DNA from: Carboxylicivirga sp.
GTDB taxonomy: Bacteria > Bacteroidota > Bacteroidia > Bacteroidales > Marinilabiliaceae
Length of the DNA stretch: 64,000 nt
Reading direction: 5' to 3'
Assembly: GCA_025210475.1 (NCBI GenBank)
Contig: JAOARW010000053.1
Location: 124,001-188,000, forward strand
The position numbers were made by a program, and so were the translations under genes. This document shows, piece by piece, positions 50,502 through 60,155 of this stretch. Within the stretch, counting starts at the first letter, position 1. Each line of letters starts with the position of its first letter. The notes beneath the pieces are model-generated. The model was given only the letters and a program-made list of their open reading frames with translations. It had not been told where the DNA came from and did not search any database.

Positions 50502-52040
50502 TTAAGCACCCCAGTTTGAGCGATCTAAACTGCGATATTGAACCGCTTCGGCTACGTGGTGCGATTGAACGGTTTCACAATTTTCCAAATCGGCAATGGT
50601 CCTCGATACTTTCAGAATACGGTCGTAGGCTCTTGCTGAAAGATCCAGTTTTTCCATGGCTGTCTTTAATATGTTCATGCCATTTTCATCCGGAGTAGCA
50701 TATTTGGCCAGTTGCCGACTGTTCATTTGGGCGTTGCAATGCACCTGTTCGTTACCGTTAAAACGTGCATTTTGAACCTTTCTGGCATTCATTACCCGTT
50801 CCCGAACCGATATACTTGTTTCAGATGGTGGTGAATCAGCGAGCTTGTTAAATGGTACCGGTACAACTTCAATGTGCAGGTCGATGCGATCCAATAAAGG
50901 ACCCGAAATTTTACTTAAATACTTTTGAACCACACCGGGGCTGCAGACACATTTCTTTTCGGGATGGTTAAAATAACCGCAAGGACATGGATTCATTGAG
51001 GAGACAAGCATAAAACTTGCAGGATAATCAATGGTGAAGCGTGCCCTGGAAATACTGATGCGCCTGTCTTCAAGTGGTTGACGCATCACTTCCAACACGG
51101 TCCGCTTAAATTCCGGTAATTCATCCAAAAAGAGTACGCCATTATGAGAGAGTGATATTTCGCCGGGTTGCGGAAACGAACCACCGCCAACGAGTGCAAC
51201 ATCACTAATGGTATGGTGCGGCGAACGGAATGGCCGTTGAGTAATTAAGGCCGTATTGCTGCCGGTTTTACCAGCAACAGAATGTATTTTGGTGGTTTCT
51301 AAGGCCTCATCCAGAGTTAGCGGAGGTAATATACTTGCCAGTCGTTTGGCTAACATGGATTTTCCGGCACCTGGCGGGCCGATCATAATCAGGTTATGTC
51401 CGCCGGCTGCAGCAATCTCCAAAGAACGTTTAACGCTTTCCTGCCCTTTGACATCCGAAAAATCAAAATCAACGATTTGTGTACCCTTCTCAAATTCCTC
51501 TTCAGTATTTACTTCAACGGGTTCAAAAGTCTTCTCATCTTCCAGGAATTGAATTACCTCTTTGATATTTTCAAAGCCATAAATATCGATGCCGTTAACT
51601 ACAGCTGCCTCACGCGCATTTTCCAATGGCAGAATACAGCCTTTGAAGCCTTCTTCCTTAGCTCTGATGGCAATCGGGAGTACCCCTTTGATGGGCTGTA
51701 AACTACCATCCAACGATAATTCACCCATTATTACATAATCCGATAATTTATGATTAACTACTTGCGAAGAGGCTGCAAGAATACCTATGGCCAATGGTAG
51801 GTCGTATGCTGCACCTTCCTTGCGTATGTCGGCAGGTGCCATGTTAATCACAATTTTATGACCCGGCCACTTGTATCCACTCACCTTCAAAGCTGAATCA
51901 ATGCGTTGCTGACTTTCCTTTATGGCATTGTCGGGTAATCCGACCAGGAAGAAGCGAATGCCTTTTGAAATATTTACCTCAATGGTTATGGTGCATGCAT
52001 CAATGCCACTGACAGCTGAGCCAAAAGTTTTTACTAACAT
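50502..52040 (-). CDS. YifB/ComM family Mg-chelatase-like AAA ATPase
   Basis: A 512-residue ATPase with an N-terminal Lon-like (ChlI) domain (about 1-170), Walker A IGPPGAGKSMLAKRL (about 217-231), the Mg-chelatase motif ISLSHNGVLFLDELPEF, and a C-terminal domain with CPCGYFNHPEKKCVCSPG, a cysteine cluster typical of YifB. In other bacteria ComM is a helicase promoting branch migration during natural transformation. No competence genes are here, so a role in recombination generally is the safer view. The only close neighbours are HNH and a metallo-hydrolase gene on the same strand. Confidence 0.93.
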   Translation of the reverse strand: MLVKTFGSAVSGIDACTITIEVNISKGIRFFLVGLPDNAIKESQQRIDSALKVSGYKWPGHKIVINMAPADIRKEGAAYDLPLAIGILAASSQVVNHKLSDYVIMGELSLDGSLQPIKGVLPIAIRAKEEGFKGCILPLENAREAAVVNGIDIYGFENIKEVIQFLEDEKTFEPVEVNTEEEFEKGTQIVDFDFSDVKGQESVKRSLEIAAAGGHNLIMIGPPGAGKSMLAKRLASILPPLTLDEALETTKIHSVAGKTGSNTALITQRPFRSPHHTISDVALVGGGSFPQPGEISLSHNGVLFLDELPEFKRTVLEVMRQPLEDRRISISRARFTIDYPASFMLVSSMNPCPCGYFNHPEKKCVCSPGVVQKYLSKISGPLLDRIDLHIEVVPVPFNKLADSPPSETSISVRERVMNARKVQNARFNGNEQVHCNAQMNSRQLAKYATPDENGMNILKTAMEKLDLSARAYDRILKVSRTIADLENCETVQSHHVAEAVQYRSLDRSNWGA

Positions 52041-52145
52041 GGGTGTTAAAATTTAACAGGAAGTTAATAAAAATATTCAACTGTATAGCAATGGCGGAGA
52101 AAATTATCATTCAGAGTTAGTTAGGCTTTTAATGCTACCAGAAAG

Positions 52146-52964
52146 TTATATTTCGTAAATACAACCGCTCCCACAATATTCCACCTGATCGCCATATGTT
52201 TGCCTGAATCGTTCAAATGCAGCTTGTCCTGTGCAATGATTTAATGCCCATTTGTTAACTGTAAAAGGAGACAGACCATTAATTACATGCTTAATATCAT
52301 CTTCATTTGCTCCGTTGAGATGCAATCCTCCGGCAACCAATGAAAAGCATTGAAGCTGATGTCGCCTGTTGATTGTGTGCAAAATATTGACGATGCCATT
52401 ATGGGCACAACCACATAAAACCATGGAGGATGAATCTGCTTGGGCAAGCAGAATAATTTCGTCATCGAAAGTATCTGGAAGGTAATTGCCATTTTCGTTA
52501 ACAACTAAGCGTGGATTGTTAATATCGTAGTTCGTTTGTTTTTCAATCCCGGTCAGAATCGTCAGACCATTTTCAATGTTAATGTCACCATCGATCAATA
52601 GCAAGCGATCGGCATATTCGCTCATGGAGTCTTTCCAGGCAATGCCATTTTCTTTTAGCATAACACTGGACTTTGAAAAGCGTTGCTTAAAAGCCTTTTT
52701 GTGAACGATAATGCGGGCTTTATCATTAATCTTGCAAAAGGCAGGTAGCCCGCCTGTATGGTCGTAATGACCGTGACTAAGAATGACATAATCAATCGCA
52801 CTTAAATCAACACCTAGTCTTTGGGCATTGTCAATAAATTTACTGGTCTGACCGGTATCGTAGATAATTTTATGTTGATCCGTTTCCAATAAAAAGGATA
52901 GTCCATGTTCACATTTCAGTTGCTTCTGACTTTGTTGATTGTCGATCAGTGTTGTAAGCTTCAT
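52146..52964 (-). CDS. Metallo-beta-lactamase-fold hydrolase
   Basis: A 272-residue MBL-fold protein with the metal motif SHGHYDHTGG (HxHxDH, near 64-73), a CGCAHNGIVNIL segment carrying a later histidine near 192 and a final LNHCTG near 247. The overall pattern resembles the 7,8-dihydropterin-6-methyl-4-aminobenzene-phosphate synthase-like family within MBL, a family of mostly unassigned function in bacteria. No signal peptide. It is divergent from priA. Substrate unknown. Confidence 0.85.
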   Translation of the reverse strand: MKLTTLIDNQQSQKQLKCEHGLSFLLETDQHKIIYDTGQTSKFIDNAQRLGVDLSAIDYVILSHGHYDHTGGLPAFCKINDKARIIVHKKAFKQRFSKSSVMLKENGIAWKDSMSEYADRLLLIDGDINIENGLTILTGIEKQTNYDINNPRLVVNENGNYLPDTFDDEIILLAQADSSSMVLCGCAHNGIVNILHTINRRHQLQCFSLVAGGLHLNGANEDDIKHVINGLSPFTVNKWALNHCTGQAAFERFRQTYGDQVEYCGSGCIYEI

Positions 52965-53158
52965 AACAAGAAAATATGGTACTAAGCTACAACAGATTGT
53001 TAGAATAAGATCATTTTTATGGGATCGATTAAAGTTATTCCGTCTTTTTATAAACTTAGTGAAGCTGGCCCATATCAGAATAAAAACAACAATGGGGGAT
53101 GTGCTGCTTAAGTTAGATTGGGAGCGATTCCTTATCTTTACGCTGCTAAATTTTTAGG

Positions 53159-55630
53159 ATGAACAGTCAATCTCTTTACGCCGATATCATTTTGCCGGTG
53201 CCTTTACCAAGGTTATTTACCTATTCTATTCCAGCTGAATATTCGAAACTGCTTGAGGTTGGTAAGCGGGTAGCCATCCCCTTCGGTAAGAAAAAAGTTT
53301 ATTCGGGGATTGTGTATAAGTTGCACACTAATAAACCGGAGGAATATGAAACGAAAGATATTATTTCGGTCTTGGATGATACTGTTGTTGTAAATGCCTT
53401 TCAGTTGAAGTTTTGGGATTGGCTGGCCGAATATTACCAATGTACTTTAGGGGAAGTCTATAAGGCAGCTTTGCCATCGGGATTGAAGATGGAGAGTGAG
53501 ACGCGTATTATATATAACGCCGATTTTGAAGCTGAATCGCCCTTGTCGGAAAGGGAGAATAAGGTGTTGGATATTATAGCCGGAAAGAAGATTTGTTCCA
53601 TCAATGATGTTAATCAACTGAGTGGATATAAAAACTGCCTGCCAATTATAAAGCGTTTACTGGAGTACAATGCTGTGTTTGTTAACGAGCATCTGAAGGA
53701 AGGTTATAAAGCTAAAACCAAAAAGGTGATTTCTTTGCATCCCCGTTGTCAATCCGAAGAAATATTACAGGCTACTTTCGATCAGTTGTCTAGAGCCCCC
53801 AAGCAATTGGAGCTGTTGATGACCTTGCTTTCGATGCTGGGTGGTCTAAATGCTGCTATTAACAACCAATCGGTTGATAAGGCCGAATTATTAAAAAAAG
53901 CCAATGCCAGTGCGGCCGCATTAAAGGAACTATGTAATAAAGAAATCTTTTTAGAGCAGTCATTAGCCATAGATCGTTTGGATCTGGATGAAAAAGAAGT
54001 GCGCCAGGCCAATGTGCTAAGCCCGGTGCAGCAAACAGCTTATGATGAAATTCAATACAGCTTCGGATCGCACGATGTGACTTTATTGCATGGAGTGACG
54101 TCGGGTGGTAAGACTGAAATTTACATCCACCTGATTGAGGAGCAATTAAAAGCCGGTAAGCAGGTATTGTATCTATTGCCCGAAATTGCTTTAACAACCC
54201 AGATAACATCGCGCCTGCAAAAGCACTTTGGTAATAAAATGGGCATCTACCATAGTAAGTTTGCCGATGCCGAGCGTGTTGAGGTGTGGCAAAATTTGCT
54301 TCAGAAGCGTAATTATCAACTGATCGTTGGGGTGCGTTCGTCGGTTTTTCTACCGTTTTCGAATCTGGGGTTGATTATAGTGGACGAGGAACACGAGAAT
54401 ACTTATAAACAATTTGATCCGGCACCGCGCTATCATGCCCGCGATGCTGCCATTGTGCTGGCTAAGCTCTTTGGTGCAAAAACTTTGTTGGGTACCGCCA
54501 CACCTTCCATTGAGTCGTACTTTAACGCCCAGCAGGGAAAGTATGCACTGGTGGAGTTGTTACAGCGTTTTGAAGGCATTGAAATGCCGGAGGTGGTGGC
54601 TGTAGATGTGAGAGAGGCGAAGCGAAAAAAGCAGATGAGTTCTCATTTTACCCCCCTTTTGCTCGAAAAGATTGATGAAGCCCTTTTGAAAGGCGAGCAG
54701 ATAATCCTTTTTCAGAACCGACGTGGTTTTAGTCCTTTTATTGAGTGTGGGCAATGTGCCTATGTGGCTAAATGTGTGAATTGCGACGTGAGCATGACTT
54801 ACCATAAACACCTCAATCAGCTGGTGTGTCATTACTGTAACCACACAATGGCTTTGCCAAGTGTTTGTCCGGCCTGTCATAGCCCGGCAATGGAAACACG
54901 TGGTTTTGGAACCGAAAAGATCGAGGAGGAGATGGGATTGTTGTATCCCGACCATAAGGTGGCCCGCATGGACCTGGATACTACGCGAAGTAAATCGGCC
55001 TACGATAAGTTGATTAAGAAATTTGAGGATGGGCAAGTGCACATTCTCATTGGTACCCAGATGATATCCAAGGGGCTCGACTTTGATAATGTGAGTGTGG
55101 TTGGTATTCTCAATGCCGACAACATGCTGAATTATCCCGACTTCAGGGCTTTTGAGCGAAGCTTCCAATTGATGACACAGGTAAGTGGCCGGGCCGGACG
55201 CAAGCATAAACGCGGGTTGGTGGTATTGCAAACCTCTAATCCTCAGCATCCGGTTATATTGGATGTGATCAACCACAATTTTCAGAATCATTATAAGGGG
55301 CAGATCGATGAGCGGCTGATGTTTAAATACCCTCCGTTCTATCGCCTGATAAACATCACCATCAAGCACAAGGATCAGAACATCACCAATAAGGCCGCCC
55401 AGGTATTGGCAGGTCAGTTGCGGGCTATTTTTGGCAGTCGTGTGCTTGGCCCACAGGCACCGGTGATTAACCGCATTCAAAATCTGTACATCAAAAAGAT
55501 AATGATTAAGCTTGAGCGTAAAGCATCGCCGGCCAAGGTAAAACACCTGATGCGTGAGTGTATCTTTAGCTTACAGGCTCAGCAAGCCTTTCGCTATGTT
55601 ACTTTCCAGATAGACGTGGACCCTGCATAA
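53159..55630 (+). CDS. priA: Primosomal helicase PriA
   Basis: An 823-residue superfamily 2 helicase that restarts stalled replication forks. The N-terminal 3' DNA-binding domain occupies about 1-110. The helicase core has Walker A HGVTSGGKTEIYIHL (near 313-327), DEEH in IIVDEEHENTYKQ and GTATPSIES. The zinc cluster has two cysteine-rich knuckles between about 529 and 577 (CGQCAYVAKCVNC, CHYCNH, CPACHS). Motifs GTQMISKGLDF and QVSGRAGR close the core. The length is typical. Confidence 0.97.
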   Translation: MNSQSLYADIILPVPLPRLFTYSIPAEYSKLLEVGKRVAIPFGKKKVYSGIVYKLHTNKPEEYETKDIISVLDDTVVVNAFQLKFWDWLAEYYQCTLGEVYKAALPSGLKMESETRIIYNADFEAESPLSERENKVLDIIAGKKICSINDVNQLSGYKNCLPIIKRLLEYNAVFVNEHLKEGYKAKTKKVISLHPRCQSEEILQATFDQLSRAPKQLELLMTLLSMLGGLNAAINNQSVDKAELLKKANASAAALKELCNKEIFLEQSLAIDRLDLDEKEVRQANVLSPVQQTAYDEIQYSFGSHDVTLLHGVTSGGKTEIYIHLIEEQLKAGKQVLYLLPEIALTTQITSRLQKHFGNKMGIYHSKFADAERVEVWQNLLQKRNYQLIVGVRSSVFLPFSNLGLIIVDEEHENTYKQFDPAPRYHARDAAIVLAKLFGAKTLLGTATPSIESYFNAQQGKYALVELLQRFEGIEMPEVVAVDVREAKRKKQMSSHFTPLLLEKIDEALLKGEQIILFQNRRGFSPFIECGQCAYVAKCVNCDVSMTYHKHLNQLVCHYCNHTMALPSVCPACHSPAMETRGFGTEKIEEEMGLLYPDHKVARMDLDTTRSKSAYDKLIKKFEDGQVHILIGTQMISKGLDFDNVSVVGILNADNMLNYPDFRAFERSFQLMTQVSGRAGRKHKRGLVVLQTSNPQHPVILDVINHNFQNHYKGQIDERLMFKYPPFYRLINITIKHKDQNITNKAAQVLAGQLRAIFGSRVLGPQAPVINRIQNLYIKKIMIKLERKASPAKVKHLMRECIFSLQAQQAFRYVTFQIDVDPA

Positions 55631-55900
55631 GAGTCAGCGGTGTGGGACTAATTCCTTGATATATGATTAGGTATAGTTTCTTAGGATATTTGGCGAGTAG
55701 TGTAGTATGTGCAAGGCAACTGCCAATGATCTAATATGAGTACCCTTTTAGGAAATACAGAACGTGGCAATTAGCACCCTGACAACCGCTACCAGATGGT
55801 TGAATGATAAATGCGTCTGTGATGGAGGTACTTGATACACTAACCAGACACTTAATTGAATACGAAGGCAGTAGTGGAGCATAAGCTAATGAAGGTTGTT

Positions 55901-55987
55901 TGTCGCCAATTGGCGACAGAAGCGAGCGCCAGTTGGCGACAAATGTGGTCGTTAATTAGCGACAAGTTCTGTCGTTAGCTGGCGACA
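55901..55987. repeat. Array of four 18-bp palindromes, exact 23-bp period
   Basis: Units begin at 55901, 55924, 55947 and 55970 and are separated by five-base spacers (GAAGC, AATGT, AGTTC). Unit 1 is TGTCGCCAATTGGCGACA, a perfect palindrome; unit 4 is TGTCGTTAGCTGGCGACA; units 2 and 3 start GAGCGCCA and GGTCGTTA. All end in (G/A)GCGACA. The period of 23 is not a multiple of three, so the array is not coding. It resembles operators or iterons; it is too short in repeat and spacer for CRISPR. Confidence 0.9.
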
Positions 55988-56131
55988 AGAGTCTGATTGC
56001 ATAAGGTACGAGTGACAGATATTATGGGAAGGGAAGGTGTGACCTTAGTTAGTGGGGCATGGCTTCATTGGTAGTTGTAGGACTCGCATCAGCTATGGAT
56101 AAAGCGAGCCAGGCAAGTCGTTAGATCTCAC

Positions 56132-56177
56132 AAAAAAAAGAGGGACCTAGCATATCTCCCCCATGCAACGGTCCCTC
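56132..56177 (-). terminator. Terminator of the arg/citrate synthase run
   Basis: GAGGGACC (56140-56147) and GGTCCCTC (56170-56177) are perfect complements with an inner GCAT/ATGC pairing in the loop; on the minus strand a T8 run follows (complement of A8 at 56132-56139). It lies 28 bases after the citrate synthase stop. Confidence 0.88.
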
Positions 56178-56204
56178 ATACCCAATCAACAAAAATTCTT
56201 ATAT

Positions 56205-57545
56205 CTATCTATTGTCTATTTCTTCATAATCAATTCGATCGCACACATTTTTATAGGCCGGACGAATAATGCGTCGGCTGGAGAAGGTGACCTCTTCGAT
56301 GCGGTGGGCACACCAACCGGCAATGCGCGAAACGGCAAAAATCGGCGTGTAAATTTCCTTTGGAATCTGTAGGCAATCGTAAACAAATCCGCTGTAGAAA
56401 TCCACGTTGGCACAGATTACCTTGGCATTGGCACCCTTGAAATCGTAGAATACCTGTGGCGCCAAACGCTCGATGGCCGCATATAGATGGAACTCATCCA
56501 ATCGGCCTTTTTCGATGGCCAAAGCCTCGGCTTTCTCTTTTAGCAAGACAGCACGTGGATCGGAATTGGTATAGATGGCATGACCAATACCATAAATCTT
56601 ACCCGTGTTATCAAAGGCTTTTTTGTTCAATATCTTTAAAAGGTAGGCCTTGATTTCTTTTTCATCGCGCCAATCTTTAACATTGGCCTTGATGTTTTCC
56701 ATCATGTCCATCACCTTAAGGTTGGCACCACCATGTAACCCACCCTTTAATGAGCCCAGTGCCGCTGCAATGGCCGAATAAGTATCGGTTTGTGCCGAAC
56801 TTACCACACGCGTTGTAAACGACGAATTGTTACCTCCACCGTGCTCGGCATGAATGACCAGCGACAGATCCAGCAGGTCGGCTTCCAGTTTGGAGTAATT
56901 ATCGCCCTTTAACATGTAAAGGAAGTTTTCGGCCGTGCTTAAATGTGGCTGCGGATGACGAATTACCAGCGAGCGTTTCTGATACGAGTGGCGCATGCCA
57001 AAGTAAGAGTAAGCCACAATTACCGGAAACTTGGCGATTAAACTGATGGATTGCTTAATCAGGTTTTCGGGCGATAAATCTTCGGCCTCTTCGTCGGCCG
57101 TGTACAAGCCCAGTACCGAGCGAGCCAGCATGTTCATTATATCCCTTCCGCGTAAGGACAGGATCATGTTTTTGGAAAAGAAGGGTGGTAAATGGCGCTC
57201 TTCGGCCAGTTCCTTCGAAAACTCTTCCAGTTCGGCATTGTTTGGTAAGCTACCCGACAGCAGCAAATAGGCTGTTTCGTCGAAACCATGGCGCCCCTGC
57301 GACTGAAAGCCTTTGGCCAGTTCTTTTAGTTCAACACCACGATAGAATAGTTTACCCTCTTTGGGAATTAACTTGCCATCTACTTTGTCGTATCCTTCCA
57401 CATCGCCAATGGTGGTTAAGCCCACAAGAACACCCGAGAAATCGGCATTTCGCAATCCCCTTTTAACACTGAACTTATCAAACAATGACTTGTCAATATC
57501 ACTCGATGCAACTGCATCCTTCGCCAATTTCTCGTATAATGCCAT
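56205..57545 (-). CDS. gltA: Citrate synthase
   Basis: A 446-residue enzyme joining acetyl-CoA and oxaloacetate. HAEHGGGNNSSFTTRVV (near 230), LKGGLHGGANLKVMDMM and GIGHAIYTNSDPRA (near 317) supply the catalytic histidines and the substrate site, and NVDFYSGFVYDCLQIP gives the catalytic aspartate. A 2-methylcitrate synthase is a less likely alternative. It follows argH with a 20-base gap on the same strand, at the end of the arginine/proline gene run, and a strong terminator follows. The product leads to 2-oxoglutarate and glutamate, the precursor of both pathways upstream. Confidence 0.9.
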   Translation of the reverse strand: MALYEKLAKDAVASSDIDKSLFDKFSVKRGLRNADFSGVLVGLTTIGDVEGYDKVDGKLIPKEGKLFYRGVELKELAKGFQSQGRHGFDETAYLLLSGSLPNNAELEEFSKELAEERHLPPFFSKNMILSLRGRDIMNMLARSVLGLYTADEEAEDLSPENLIKQSISLIAKFPVIVAYSYFGMRHSYQKRSLVIRHPQPHLSTAENFLYMLKGDNYSKLEADLLDLSLVIHAEHGGGNNSSFTTRVVSSAQTDTYSAIAAALGSLKGGLHGGANLKVMDMMENIKANVKDWRDEKEIKAYLLKILNKKAFDNTGKIYGIGHAIYTNSDPRAVLLKEKAEALAIEKGRLDEFHLYAAIERLAPQVFYDFKGANAKVICANVDFYSGFVYDCLQIPKEIYTPIFAVSRIAGWCAHRIEEVTFSSRRIIRPAYKNVCDRIDYEEIDNR

Positions 57546-57565
57546 ATAATTTTGTTTACTAATGC

Positions 57566-58903
57566 TTAGTCGGTCGCCAGCAGAGATTGAATAGCTCTGT
57601 TGACTTCTTCAAAGCCAAATTCTTGTATTATTTTATCTTTCTTTTTCTCAATATTTTCGTTGCACAAATTGCCAATGGAGCCTTCGTGACAATGGTTCAC
57701 ATGACCATCGGTTTCAAATTGGCCGGCTTCAATGGCCAATCCCACCTGCTTGTAAGCATCTCTGAAAGGCACGCCGCTTAATACCAGTTTATTAACCTCT
57801 TCAACACTGAAAGCCAGTTTATAGCGTTCCTCCTGCATCACATCAGTTTTTACCTCGATGTTTTCGATGGCAAAGGCAGCTATCTCCAGGCAGTCAATCA
57901 TCTCGTCAAAGGCCGGCATAAATACTTCTTTAATCAATTGCAGATCGCGGAAGTAACCCGTTGGTAAATTGCAAGTGATCATACCAATGGTTTCGGGCAA
58001 GGCCTGAAGCTTGTTACAATGTGCTCTCAGCAGCTCAAAAACATCCGGATTCTTTTTATGCGGCATAATGCTCGATCCGGTGGTTAGTTCATCGGGTAGT
58101 TTGATAAAGCCAAAATTCTGACTGGTAAACAAACAACCATCAACGGCCAGCTTGCCCACCGTTTGTGCGATGGACGATAAGGCATAAGCTACTGTTCGTT
58201 CCATTTTGCCCCGTGCCATTTGTGCATAGCCCACATTGTAGTTCAGGTCTTCAAAACCCAACAATTGTGTGGTCATTGTGCGGTTCAAAGGAAACGAAGA
58301 ACCATAACCGGCAGCTGTGCCCAATGGATTCTGATTGGCGGTACGCCAGGCTGCCTGCATCATCAACAGGTCATCGGCCAGGCTTTCGGCAAAGGCTCCA
58401 AACCAAACACCAAATGATGATGGCATAGCCACCTGAAGGTGTGTATAGCCAGGAATCAGCACAGCTTTGTGCTCTTCGCTTTTTTGCTGCAACAGGCCAA
58501 ACAGCTTATCAACTGCTTTTACCACTTCTTCGATGCGATGGCGGGTGTAAAGCTTAAGATCCAGTAGTACCTGATCGTTTCTGGAACGACCACTGTGTAC
58601 CTTTTTACCAATATCGCCCAACTGACGGGTCAACATTAGTTCCACCTGCGAATGCACATCCTCAATGCCATCTTCGATTTCAAAATCACCTGCCAGCGAT
58701 TGTTGATGAAGCGTTTTTAATTGAGTCAGTAAACTTTCTAATTCCTCACTGCTTAACAATCCCACGCTTTCCAACATGGTAATGTGAGCCATTGTTCCCA
58801 ATATGTCGAAAGGTGCCAGAAAAACATCCAGCTCACGATCGCGTCCGACCGTAAATTCCTCAATTCGTTTGTCAACGGAGGTTCCTTTATCCCAGAGCTT
58901 CAT
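57566..58903 (-). CDS. argH: Argininosuccinate lyase
   Basis: A 445-residue enzyme of the fumarase/aspartase superfamily, cleaving argininosuccinate to arginine and fumarate. Signature GSSIMPHKKNPDVFEL near residue 275 carries the catalytic serine loop. SRNDQVLLDLKLYTRH and PGYTHLQVAMPSSFG provide the substrate site. The upstream 181-base gap and a TAnnTTTG motif suggest that argH-gltA can be transcribed from its own promoter in addition to read-through. Confidence 0.96.
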   Translation of the reverse strand: MKLWDKGTSVDKRIEEFTVGRDRELDVFLAPFDILGTMAHITMLESVGLLSSEELESLLTQLKTLHQQSLAGDFEIEDGIEDVHSQVELMLTRQLGDIGKKVHSGRSRNDQVLLDLKLYTRHRIEEVVKAVDKLFGLLQQKSEEHKAVLIPGYTHLQVAMPSSFGVWFGAFAESLADDLLMMQAAWRTANQNPLGTAAGYGSSFPLNRTMTTQLLGFEDLNYNVGYAQMARGKMERTVAYALSSIAQTVGKLAVDGCLFTSQNFGFIKLPDELTTGSSIMPHKKNPDVFELLRAHCNKLQALPETIGMITCNLPTGYFRDLQLIKEVFMPAFDEMIDCLEIAAFAIENIEVKTDVMQEERYKLAFSVEEVNKLVLSGVPFRDAYKQVGLAIEAGQFETDGHVNHCHEGSIGNLCNENIEKKKDKIIQEFGFEEVNRAIQSLLATD

Positions 58904-58992
58904 AACGTTACCTTTTATTGTTAGTATTATTCATGCTCATCCAAAAGAAGTTACTATCTGAAAGATTTAAAAACCTCATTCTTTCGAATTAG

Positions 58993-59000
58993 CAAATATA
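58993..59000 (-). promoter_or_regulatory. Candidate -7 promoter element of argH-gltA
   Basis: Reads TATATTTG on the minus strand (TAnnTTTG), 90 bases before argH, inside the 181-base gap after the deacylase gene. No clear -33 element. The flanking sequence is strongly AT-rich. Confidence 0.4.
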
Positions 59001-59084
59001 TCTACTTTATATTTATAATTACGATTTTACATTGAATATTTATGACATTTATCATTATTTTGACTGCATATAAACAACTTGCAC

Positions 59085-60155
59085 TTAATCTATGCTGAGA
59101 TCTGTTAGTAATTTGATGTATATGTCAATGCCACTTTCGATTTCCGACAGATAGATGTACTCATCCGGTGTGTGCGAACGTGCCGAATCACCCGGGCCGA
59201 TTTTGATGGTGGTAAAATCCATCACTGCCTGATCGGAAGTGGTAGGTGATCCATAATAACTCAGTCCTGATTGAATGCCGCGCTGCACCAAAGGATGCTC
59301 AACCGGAATAAAGGAACTATTCAGTCGGAATGATCGTGGTTTGATATCGCAATCGACATGCTGCCCGATAATTTGGTGCAGCTCCTTGTTGCTGTAACAT
59401 TCGTTGAGGCGCACGTCTACCACAAATCGGCAGGAATCCGGCACCACATTGTGCTGACTGCCGGCCTCAATCTGGGTCACCGTCATTTTTACAGGGCCTA
59501 AGTGCGGAGACACTTTGTCGAACTGATAGTTTTTAAACCATTCAATATCGTTGAGGGCTTTGTAAAGTGCGTTTTCACCTTCATCGCGTGCCGCATGTCC
59601 GGTTTTGCCGTGCGCTTCGCAATCGAGCACCATTAAACCTTTTTCGGCCACGGCCATTTGCATTTGTGTGGGCTCACCCACGATGCCTAAATCAACCTTA
59701 CCAATCTCCGATAGGATAGATGCCACACCATTTGCGCCGGATACTTCTTCTTCGGCAGTTGCTGCAAATACCAGGTTGTAGGGTAAATCCTCATCCTTGA
59801 GTGTAAGAAATGTTGCCATGAGTGCTACCAGCGGACCGCCGGCATCATTGCTACCCAACCCGGTTAGTTTGTCTCCCTCAACAGTCGCTTCCAAAGGATG
59901 ATAAGTCCATTTGGAAGATGGCTTAACCGTATCCAGGTGAGAATTTAAAAGGATTGTGGCTTTACGCTCATCCTTATTGGAGGCCCAGCACCAAACATTA
60001 TTTCCCTGTCGATTTACCTTGAGTCCTTGTTTATTCAGATAGGCGGCCATCATATCGGCTGCCTCCTGTTCTTCGCGACTAAACGATTGTGTAACGATGA
60101 GCTGTTTGAGCAATTCAATCGCATCGCTTGAATATTTTTTTTGCTTGCTATCCAT
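59085..60155 (-). CDS. M20 family deacylase, ArgE-type (N-acetyl/N-succinyl-citrulline or -ornithine)
   Basis: A 356-residue zinc peptidase-fold amidohydrolase. NSHLDTVKP (metal His, catalytic Asp, near 72), GSNDAGGPLVAL (bridging Asp) and FAATAEEEVSGANG (catalytic Glu) are present, and the dimerisation/lid domain covers about 170-280. Six bases separate it from argB. In Bacteroidetes arginine synthesis that uses succinylated intermediates, an ArgE-like enzyme would remove the succinyl group after the carbamoyltransfer step; the position next to argF' supports that. Acyl specificity cannot be read from the sequence. Confidence 0.88.
   Translation of the reverse strand: MDSKQKKYSSDAIELLKQLIVTQSFSREEQEAADMMAAYLNKQGLKVNRQGNNVWCWASNKDERKATILLNSHLDTVKPSSKWTYHPLEATVEGDKLTGLGSNDAGGPLVALMATFLTLKDEDLPYNLVFAATAEEEVSGANGVASILSEIGKVDLGIVGEPTQMQMAVAEKGLMVLDCEAHGKTGHAARDEGENALYKALNDIEWFKNYQFDKVSPHLGPVKMTVTQIEAGSQHNVVPDSCRFVVDVRLNECYSNKELHQIIGQHVDCDIKPRSFRLNSSFIPVEHPLVQRGIQSGLSYYGSPTTSDQAVMDFTTIKIGPGDSARSHTPDEYIYLSEIESGIDIYIKLLTDLSID

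Follow-up and report, generated by a model that had tools for sequence, protein, structure and literature searches.

Phased palindrome arrays linked to HU-like DUF4469 genes in Bacteroidota and a detached array between priA and a citrate synthase gene in Carboxylicivirga

HU/IHF proteins are dimers, and HU-like proteins are usually seen as weakly specific benders of DNA. Repeats with a step similar to the one studied here are described for Porphyromonas gingivalis, where BrickBuilt comprises intergenic, dispersed 23-nt tandem repeats, 19 of them in one strain; many copies have a leader, a tail and terminal inverted repeats, and one of the 19 loci adjoins a gene that encodes a DNA-binding protein of PF00216 (PMC4596501). 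In this study, we analyzed an array of near-palindromes with a 23-bp step in a window of 64,000 nucleotides from the genome of a Carboxylicivirga sp., and the arrays of the same architecture to which it led. The window array probably represents detached DNA-binding sites of an HU-DUF4469 protein encoded elsewhere in the same genome (G000:C110:130114), a reading to which we assign a probability of roughly two in three. The system would then consist of a specific DNA-binding protein with arrays of its cognate sites.

The array lies in a non-coding gap between two convergent genes, and the features of the locus are as follows.

53159..55630, + strand: priA, primosomal helicase, left neighbor of the array gap
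55631..56204, no strand: non-coding gap of 574 bases with the array, from priA to citrate synthase
55901..55918, + strand: array unit 1, TGTCGCCAATTGGCGACA, a perfect 18-bp palindrome
55924..55941, + strand: array unit 2, GAGCGCCAGTTGGCGACA, imperfect, offset from unit 1 by 23 bp (start to start)
55947..55964, + strand: array unit 3, GGTCGTTAATTAGCGACA, imperfect, offset from unit 2 by 23 bp (start to start)
55970..55987, + strand: array unit 4, TGTCGTTAGCTGGCGACA, imperfect, offset from unit 3 by 23 bp (start to start)
56133..56260, no strand: the segment of 55631-56260 that can be aligned to same-genus relatives, made up of the citrate synthase end and its 3' flank
56140..56177, - strand: inverted repeat GAGGGACC/GGTCCCTC with a T run after it on the - strand, found by eye
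56205..57545, - strand: citrate synthase gene, right neighbor of the array gap, convergent with priA

The original prediction had described four 18-bp palindromes at an exact 23-bp period in a 574-base gap. Its coordinates, period and gap length were correct, with 18-mers at 55901, 55924, 55947 and 55970; perfect palindromy, however, is limited to unit 1 and does not extend to units 2-4. The right half-site (G/A)GCGACA, which had been called invariant, is identical in all four units, and the consensus proposed for the + strand fits unit 4 without a mismatch and unit 3 with one, but departs from unit 2 at three positions. Allowing up to 3 mismatches on both strands, the window pattern had 8 matches; 100 dinucleotide shuffles averaged 1.00 and never gave as many as 8. 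With the period allowed to vary from 18 to 28, the array scored 76.9 at period 23, while the maximum among shuffles was 18.0 (n = 40, periods 21-24), and the profile of its four units at pitch 23 was palindromic with a p value of 0.007. A baseline scan of 230 overlapping 800-bp stretches from the window, L031 and L007 gave scores above 35 at periods 22/23 at the three known arrays only, and one further place scored 36-41 at period 24. A chance origin of the window array was rejected on the shuffle tests together with this baseline. The prediction had also held that the array is neither a CRISPR nor the terminator. The 18-mers differ from one another, are separated by gaps of 5 bp and have priA and citrate synthase as neighboring genes, which does not resemble a CRISPR, and a scan with loops of 3-8 listed no terminator-like site in 55600-56300. 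The inverted repeat at 56140..56177, which we identified by eye and which that scan did not list, is the probable terminator of the citrate synthase gene and is separate from the array.

The window array falls outside the segment 56133..56260 that aligns to relatives, and no more than about 130 bp beside citrate synthase can be aligned. Twelve same-genus relatives had a citrate synthase match, and in 10 of them the frame beyond citrate synthase is another gene, which we take to encode the small subunit of carbamoyl-phosphate synthase; of the other two, L105 lacks such a frame over 1.5 kb and L104 ends at a contig edge. We found priA beside citrate synthase in none of the 12, one of which (L104) is cut by the contig end. 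The array therefore lies where the gene order of this genome differs from that of relatives (55631-56132). A conserved genomic position for the array, which we also considered, is unsupported, since the neighboring gene order differs in same-genus relatives. No HU-like gene adjoins the array, its neighbors being priA and citrate synthase, and tblastn with E values up to 0.01 found no remnant of an HU-DUF4469 gene at positions 53001-58000 of the window. Hence, we call the window array detached.

Within the 7.4-Mb genome that contains the window (G000), the pattern GTCGYNANNTNGCGAC matched without mismatches at the window array (contig C37) and at one other place, C110:130848-130932. The array on C110 has four units at 23-bp steps with the consensus GTCGYYANNTRRCGAC plus 7 nt, as in the window array, and the two arrays are 76% identical over 89 bp in a search whose query was the window array with its surroundings (501 bases, E 2.4e-11). 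As this query aligned elsewhere over the 89-base array only, and the flanks of the two arrays did not align with each other, the flanks are unrelated. The C110 array starts ~35 bp past the stop codon of the gene for the 232-aa HU-like DUF4469 protein at G000:C110:130114. Among 100 genomes, which included 14 of the same genus (counting the genome of the window itself), two in-phase units with up to 3 mismatches were present only in this genome and in G013, another member of the genus; a reversed control pattern produced no two-unit phased matches in the same 100 genomes. G013 carries a pair of arrays, with 7 units in one and 6 in the other. The one on C519 directly follows an HU-DUF4469 gene, whose product is 40% identical to the C110 protein while the two repeat profiles score 0.91. 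The one on C523 is detached: it has no adjoining HU-DUF4469 gene and comes after frames that are presumably ATP synthase genes. Scanning GTDB r220 contigs with the window consensus returned two stretches, both from JAKSBD01 and with the match positions of the G013 arrays (records of the window's own genome were possibly excluded), and the same scan of IMG/VR returned no stretch.

Searching the genome and its relatives had been proposed along with the original prediction, and it uncovered the same consensus at a second locus in the genome and at two loci in G013. Other copies therefore exist, and they keep the 23-bp phase while the number of units varies (4, 4, 7 and 6). The prediction had left a choice between a protein-binding array and a dispersed repeat family. 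Dispersal stood, with two arrays per genome in two genomes, and the idea of binding would fit with an HU-like gene adjoining one array in each genome. Since the consensus is present in two-unit phase in only 2 of the 14 same-genus genomes and the G013 arrays lie at other places, the window copy itself may be a bystander.

The wider set of arrays emerged from following the architecture of a gene plus an array and not from the window consensus. Most HU-DUF4469 and HU-HIG genes in our sample have their own phased array, and there are detached copies, the window array among them; this linkage was observed directly and is general across the sampled family. A first set of HU-DUF4469 loci came from relatives (a match in 19 of 60 genomes, with 62 matches listed and loci obtained for 30) and a second from a phylum-wide sample (7 of 247 genomes and 0 of 14 control genomes, with 24 matches listed and 22 new loci). 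Together these gave 52 loci, and 27 further family matches without a locus lie outside every count. We left out L052, which lies at a contig end, L066, whose periodicity falls within an open frame downstream, and L070, L080, L081 and L087, which are not full-length; 46 full-length genes (224-240 aa) could then be tested. A clean 22/23-bp array is located downstream of 41 of these 46 genes, which come from 21 genomes, with a pitch of 23 in 32 and of 22 in 9. The 41 arrays have 3-12 units and start 0-392 bp past the stop codon (median 79), and each beats all 40 of its own shuffles. Three of the 46 genes have irregular downstream arrays: the one at L047 alternates over 46 bp, the repeat at L060 falls within an open frame, and at L077 period 25 scores best, followed by 22. 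Two intact genes, L051 (G072:C193) and L078 (G000:C61), have no downstream array. L081, excluded as not full-length, does carry an array. Of the upstream sides of 51 DUF4469 loci, none scores above 35 at 22/23, and three do so at periods 24, 24 and 20. Downstream of the gene at L047 (G030:C24), we also observed two palindromic words that follow each other in alternation with a step of 23 bp, resulting in an almost perfect 46-bp period.

The unit words are mostly unlike from locus to locus, as illustrated by TTCACCAGCATTGGTGAA, GGGGAGCATGCTCCCC, GACCCAATTGGGTC and TTCCCATATATATGGGAA. The gene after the gene-linked array is convergent at 21 of 45 loci and codirectional at 18, with the orientation not determined at 6. 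Genomes contain up to nine matches to the HU-DUF4469 family, whose occurrence is patchy (7 of the 247 phylum genomes); none was confirmed in IMG/VR and none was found in phage records. The linked proteins that we scanned match HU-DNA_bdg (PF14848), HU-HIG (PF18291) and DUF4469 (PF14734) in the Pfam database, and PADLOC gave no match for 3 proteins scanned. The solved structure of a relative, 4fmr, is named only as an uncharacterized hypothetical protein.

Arrays are also present at genes of HU-HIG proteins that lack DUF4469. We compared 13 such loci from G000, G002 and G326 with 8 genes for ordinary HU (93-98 aa), and one uniform scan of whole loci found a 22/23-bp array scoring above 35 at 10 of the 13 HU-HIG loci and at 0 of the 8 ordinary HU loci, where the best 22/23 score was 25.9. 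When the flank of the HU-HIG genes was measured from the match, the count was 8 of 13. The HU-HIG loci without a 22/23 array in the whole-locus scan are L116, L120 and L124, the last being a frame with stops. Seven of the ten HU-HIG arrays sit 27-145 bp upstream of the most upstream start codon and three are downstream. At the upstream loci (L114, L115, L117, L121, L125, L126 and L127) the array occupies the position expected of an operator. The pitch differs between the subfamilies, with 32 arrays at 23 and 9 at 22 for DUF4469 against 1 at 23 and 9 at 22 for HU-HIG (Fisher p 0.00013, although related genes are not independent). We read this tracking of pitch with protein subfamily as a sign that protein geometry sets the pitch. 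Outside the Bacteroidota, plasmid pTS2 of Treponema saccharophilum (NZ_AP025290.1; L142:3738-3848) has five near-palindromes of approximately GCGYYATTANGSTRRCGC right after an HU-DUF4469-like gene, with unit steps of 23, 23, 24 and 23 by eye and a half-site resembling that of the window. The gene on a second Treponema plasmid has no 22/23 array, so that one of the two plasmid genes has one.

We analyzed the geometry of 44 arrays (the 41 clean arrays and those of the window, L031 and L081) by an unanchored core-column scan. The fixed pitch was directly observed: the 171 spacings between neighboring sites comprise 134 of 23, 36 of 22 and one of 42, with none of 21, 24 or 25, a distribution biased towards 22/23 by the definition of the cores on fixed-pitch units. 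Neighboring units are 91% identical in the core columns and 48% identical in the other columns, and unit length has thus been kept while letters drifted. The units are observed as near-palindromes, and the palindromicity of the unit profile reached p <0.02 in only 30 of the 44 arrays.

Palindromes of this kind could also act as RNA, as hairpins arranged in tandem at the 3' end of the transcript of the HU-like gene (of priA in the window) that stabilize or terminate transcripts or bind the HU-like protein. The downstream position of the array at 41 of 46 HU-DUF4469 genes would suit such a role, as would the sense strand folding far better than shuffles, with z scores of -7.2 for the window array and -6.0 for the C110 array. 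But the antisense strand folds well too (z -5.5 and -5.9, respectively), separate hairpins need no constant pitch of 22/23, HU-HIG arrays are mostly upstream of their gene (7 of 10), and no Rfam covariance model matched in the region of the window array (positions 52000-60000, E up to 5). If RNA hairpins were selected, G.T should far exceed A.C among the broken pairs of the sense strand. We counted 94 G.T and 62 A.C, a mild excess that also appears by array (23 against 7), next to 132 other mismatches and 1142 intact pairs; A.C and the other mismatches together (62 + 132) exceed G.T. This bias is weak; it allows for some function as RNA but could alternatively arise from transcription-linked mutation. 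Strand asymmetry was judged weak as proof of RNA, and another count (G.T 170, A.C 81) was set aside since its axis search favored G.T. Compensatory changes between half-sites, which had been put forward as a check on the array, are weakly in evidence. Because both strands fold well, the pitch is fixed and most HU-HIG arrays are placed upstream, we consider DNA the likelier level, and a function of the arrays as RNA quite improbable.

Similarity between repeats rises with identity between proteins (r 0.307 for 41 genes, reached in 0 of 5000 permutations), also after removing 8 pairs more than 70% identical (r 0.215, 0 of 5000). This correlation could reflect co-inheritance of linked DNA. We give more weight to two other findings: detached arrays, although unlinked, retain the word of the gene-linked array, and repeat similarity is at most 0.7 in 39 of 40 pairs of paralogues within a genome, the exception being two proteins that are 90% identical. 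The repeat is predicted about equally well by the HU half (r 0.28) and the DUF4469 half (r 0.30) of the protein, and the partial tests gave 208/3000 for N given C and 15/3000 for C given N. Hence, these comparisons do not point to the HU half as the part that recognizes the site.

Dispersed copies were likewise observed directly for other words. Three further gene-linked arrays, searched genome-wide, each had detached copies, from 1 to about 4 per array, and together with the two GTCGYYA arrays (of the window's genome and G013) this amounts to detached copies in 5 of 5 cases. With the spacers included, the copies resemble their source array by 82% in G000 (C30), by 94% and 79% for the two copies in G002, and by 73-87% for four clear copies in G326. 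Simple frame calling placed the detached arrays of the window and L089 between convergent genes and those of L092 and L095 between divergent genes. No decayed HU-DUF4469 gene was found beside detached arrays in 9 stretches searched with HU-DUF4469 queries at E values up to 0.01. By eye, some of the G326 arrays (L092, L093, L094 and L095) are long mosaics whose blocks differ in their palindromes but keep to a single 23-bp register, and they look as if sites for several paralogues had been joined.

Copies that resemble their source even in the spacers might instead be a selfish dispersed repeat, similar to REP or MITE elements, which spreads as a block with the HU-like protein as helper or passenger. 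The location of the window copy at a site of gene order unlike that of relatives agrees with this, and BrickBuilt is a 23-nt tandem repeat placed within a MITE by its authors (PMC4596501). On the other hand, the linked proteins that we scanned have no transposase domain, detached copies are few (1 to about 4 per array searched), and most of the genes that we examined have an array of fixed pitch with a word of its own, which would not be the product of one spreading element. We therefore give the spread of a selfish element little weight and favor the reading of the arrays as protein-binding sites.

From these sequences, we infer binding, cooperativity, dimerization, autoregulation and bridging by the HU-DUF4469 protein. 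The protein, probably a dimer, would read one near-palindrome, and neighboring dimers, spaced by 22-23 bp or about 2.1-2.2 helical turns, would pack side by side, which could generate a nucleoprotein filament on arrays only. An array adjacent to the gene would probably provide feedback on the HU-DUF4469 gene, and detached arrays may set the same structure elsewhere, either as an insulator or as an anchor bridging the two loci. A pair of site and protein with arrays in cis and at distant places might also be a centromere-like site for segregation or domain organization, with the HU-like protein in a role similar to that of ParB. The dissimilar words of paralogues and the presence of an array on a Treponema plasmid could be taken to support this, but up to nine family matches per genome and the patchy occurrence (7 of 247) speak against an essential role in segregation, and we regard a centromere as very unlikely. 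A broader form of the protein-binding reading, which is speculative and which we hold rather doubtful, extends to the Bacteroidota and at least one spirochaete plasmid. HU-fold proteins might there have diversified into mutually orthogonal, sequence-specific readers of arrays, each paralogue with its own palindromic word that is read only at the 22/23-bp pitch set by the subfamily, and own-gene arrays together with detached or mosaic ones might join or insulate chromosomal sites.

A limited search of the literature, which does not establish absence from print, found no report pairing the HU-DUF4469/HU-HIG family with repeats. Burroughs and others reportedly defined new HU/IHF clades in 2017, and this would be the likeliest place for a mention of the pairing. 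A family whose genes mostly have their own phased palindromic arrays would offer a directly testable function for the uncharacterized domain DUF4469 and for a Bacteroidota protein family, and dozens of natural pairs of protein and site would provide material for a recognition code. Some unexplained intergenic repeats of 22/23 bp could also be explained as arrays linked to HU-like genes.

Overall, the arrays share properties with several known systems. Like the window-type arrays, BrickBuilt is found in the Bacteroidota and is intergenic and dispersed with a 23-nt step, but by eye the consensus printed for it, AGAYCATARTATCCTCTCRTRTG, shows no clear palindrome, and the passages describing it claim no linked HU-HIG gene (PMC4596501). 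At the loci scanned, no RAYT is linked to palindromes of the window type; the linked gene is HU-like, and the neighbors in the window are priA and citrate synthase. REP/RAYT systems are similar in having palindromes at a protein gene together with dispersed copies, and differ in that the HU-DUF4469-linked proteins scanned have no transposase domain and the arrays are direct, of fixed pitch and 3-12 units long. ParB-parS and iteron-Rep systems also have phased specific sites near the gene of the binder and different words per paralogue, but the protein family here is unrelated and HU-like. Finally, the linked proteins resemble the HU/IHF superfamily by their Pfam matches, and in contrast to HU proteins in general, which are weakly specific, most of their genes in our sample have a phased palindromic array each.
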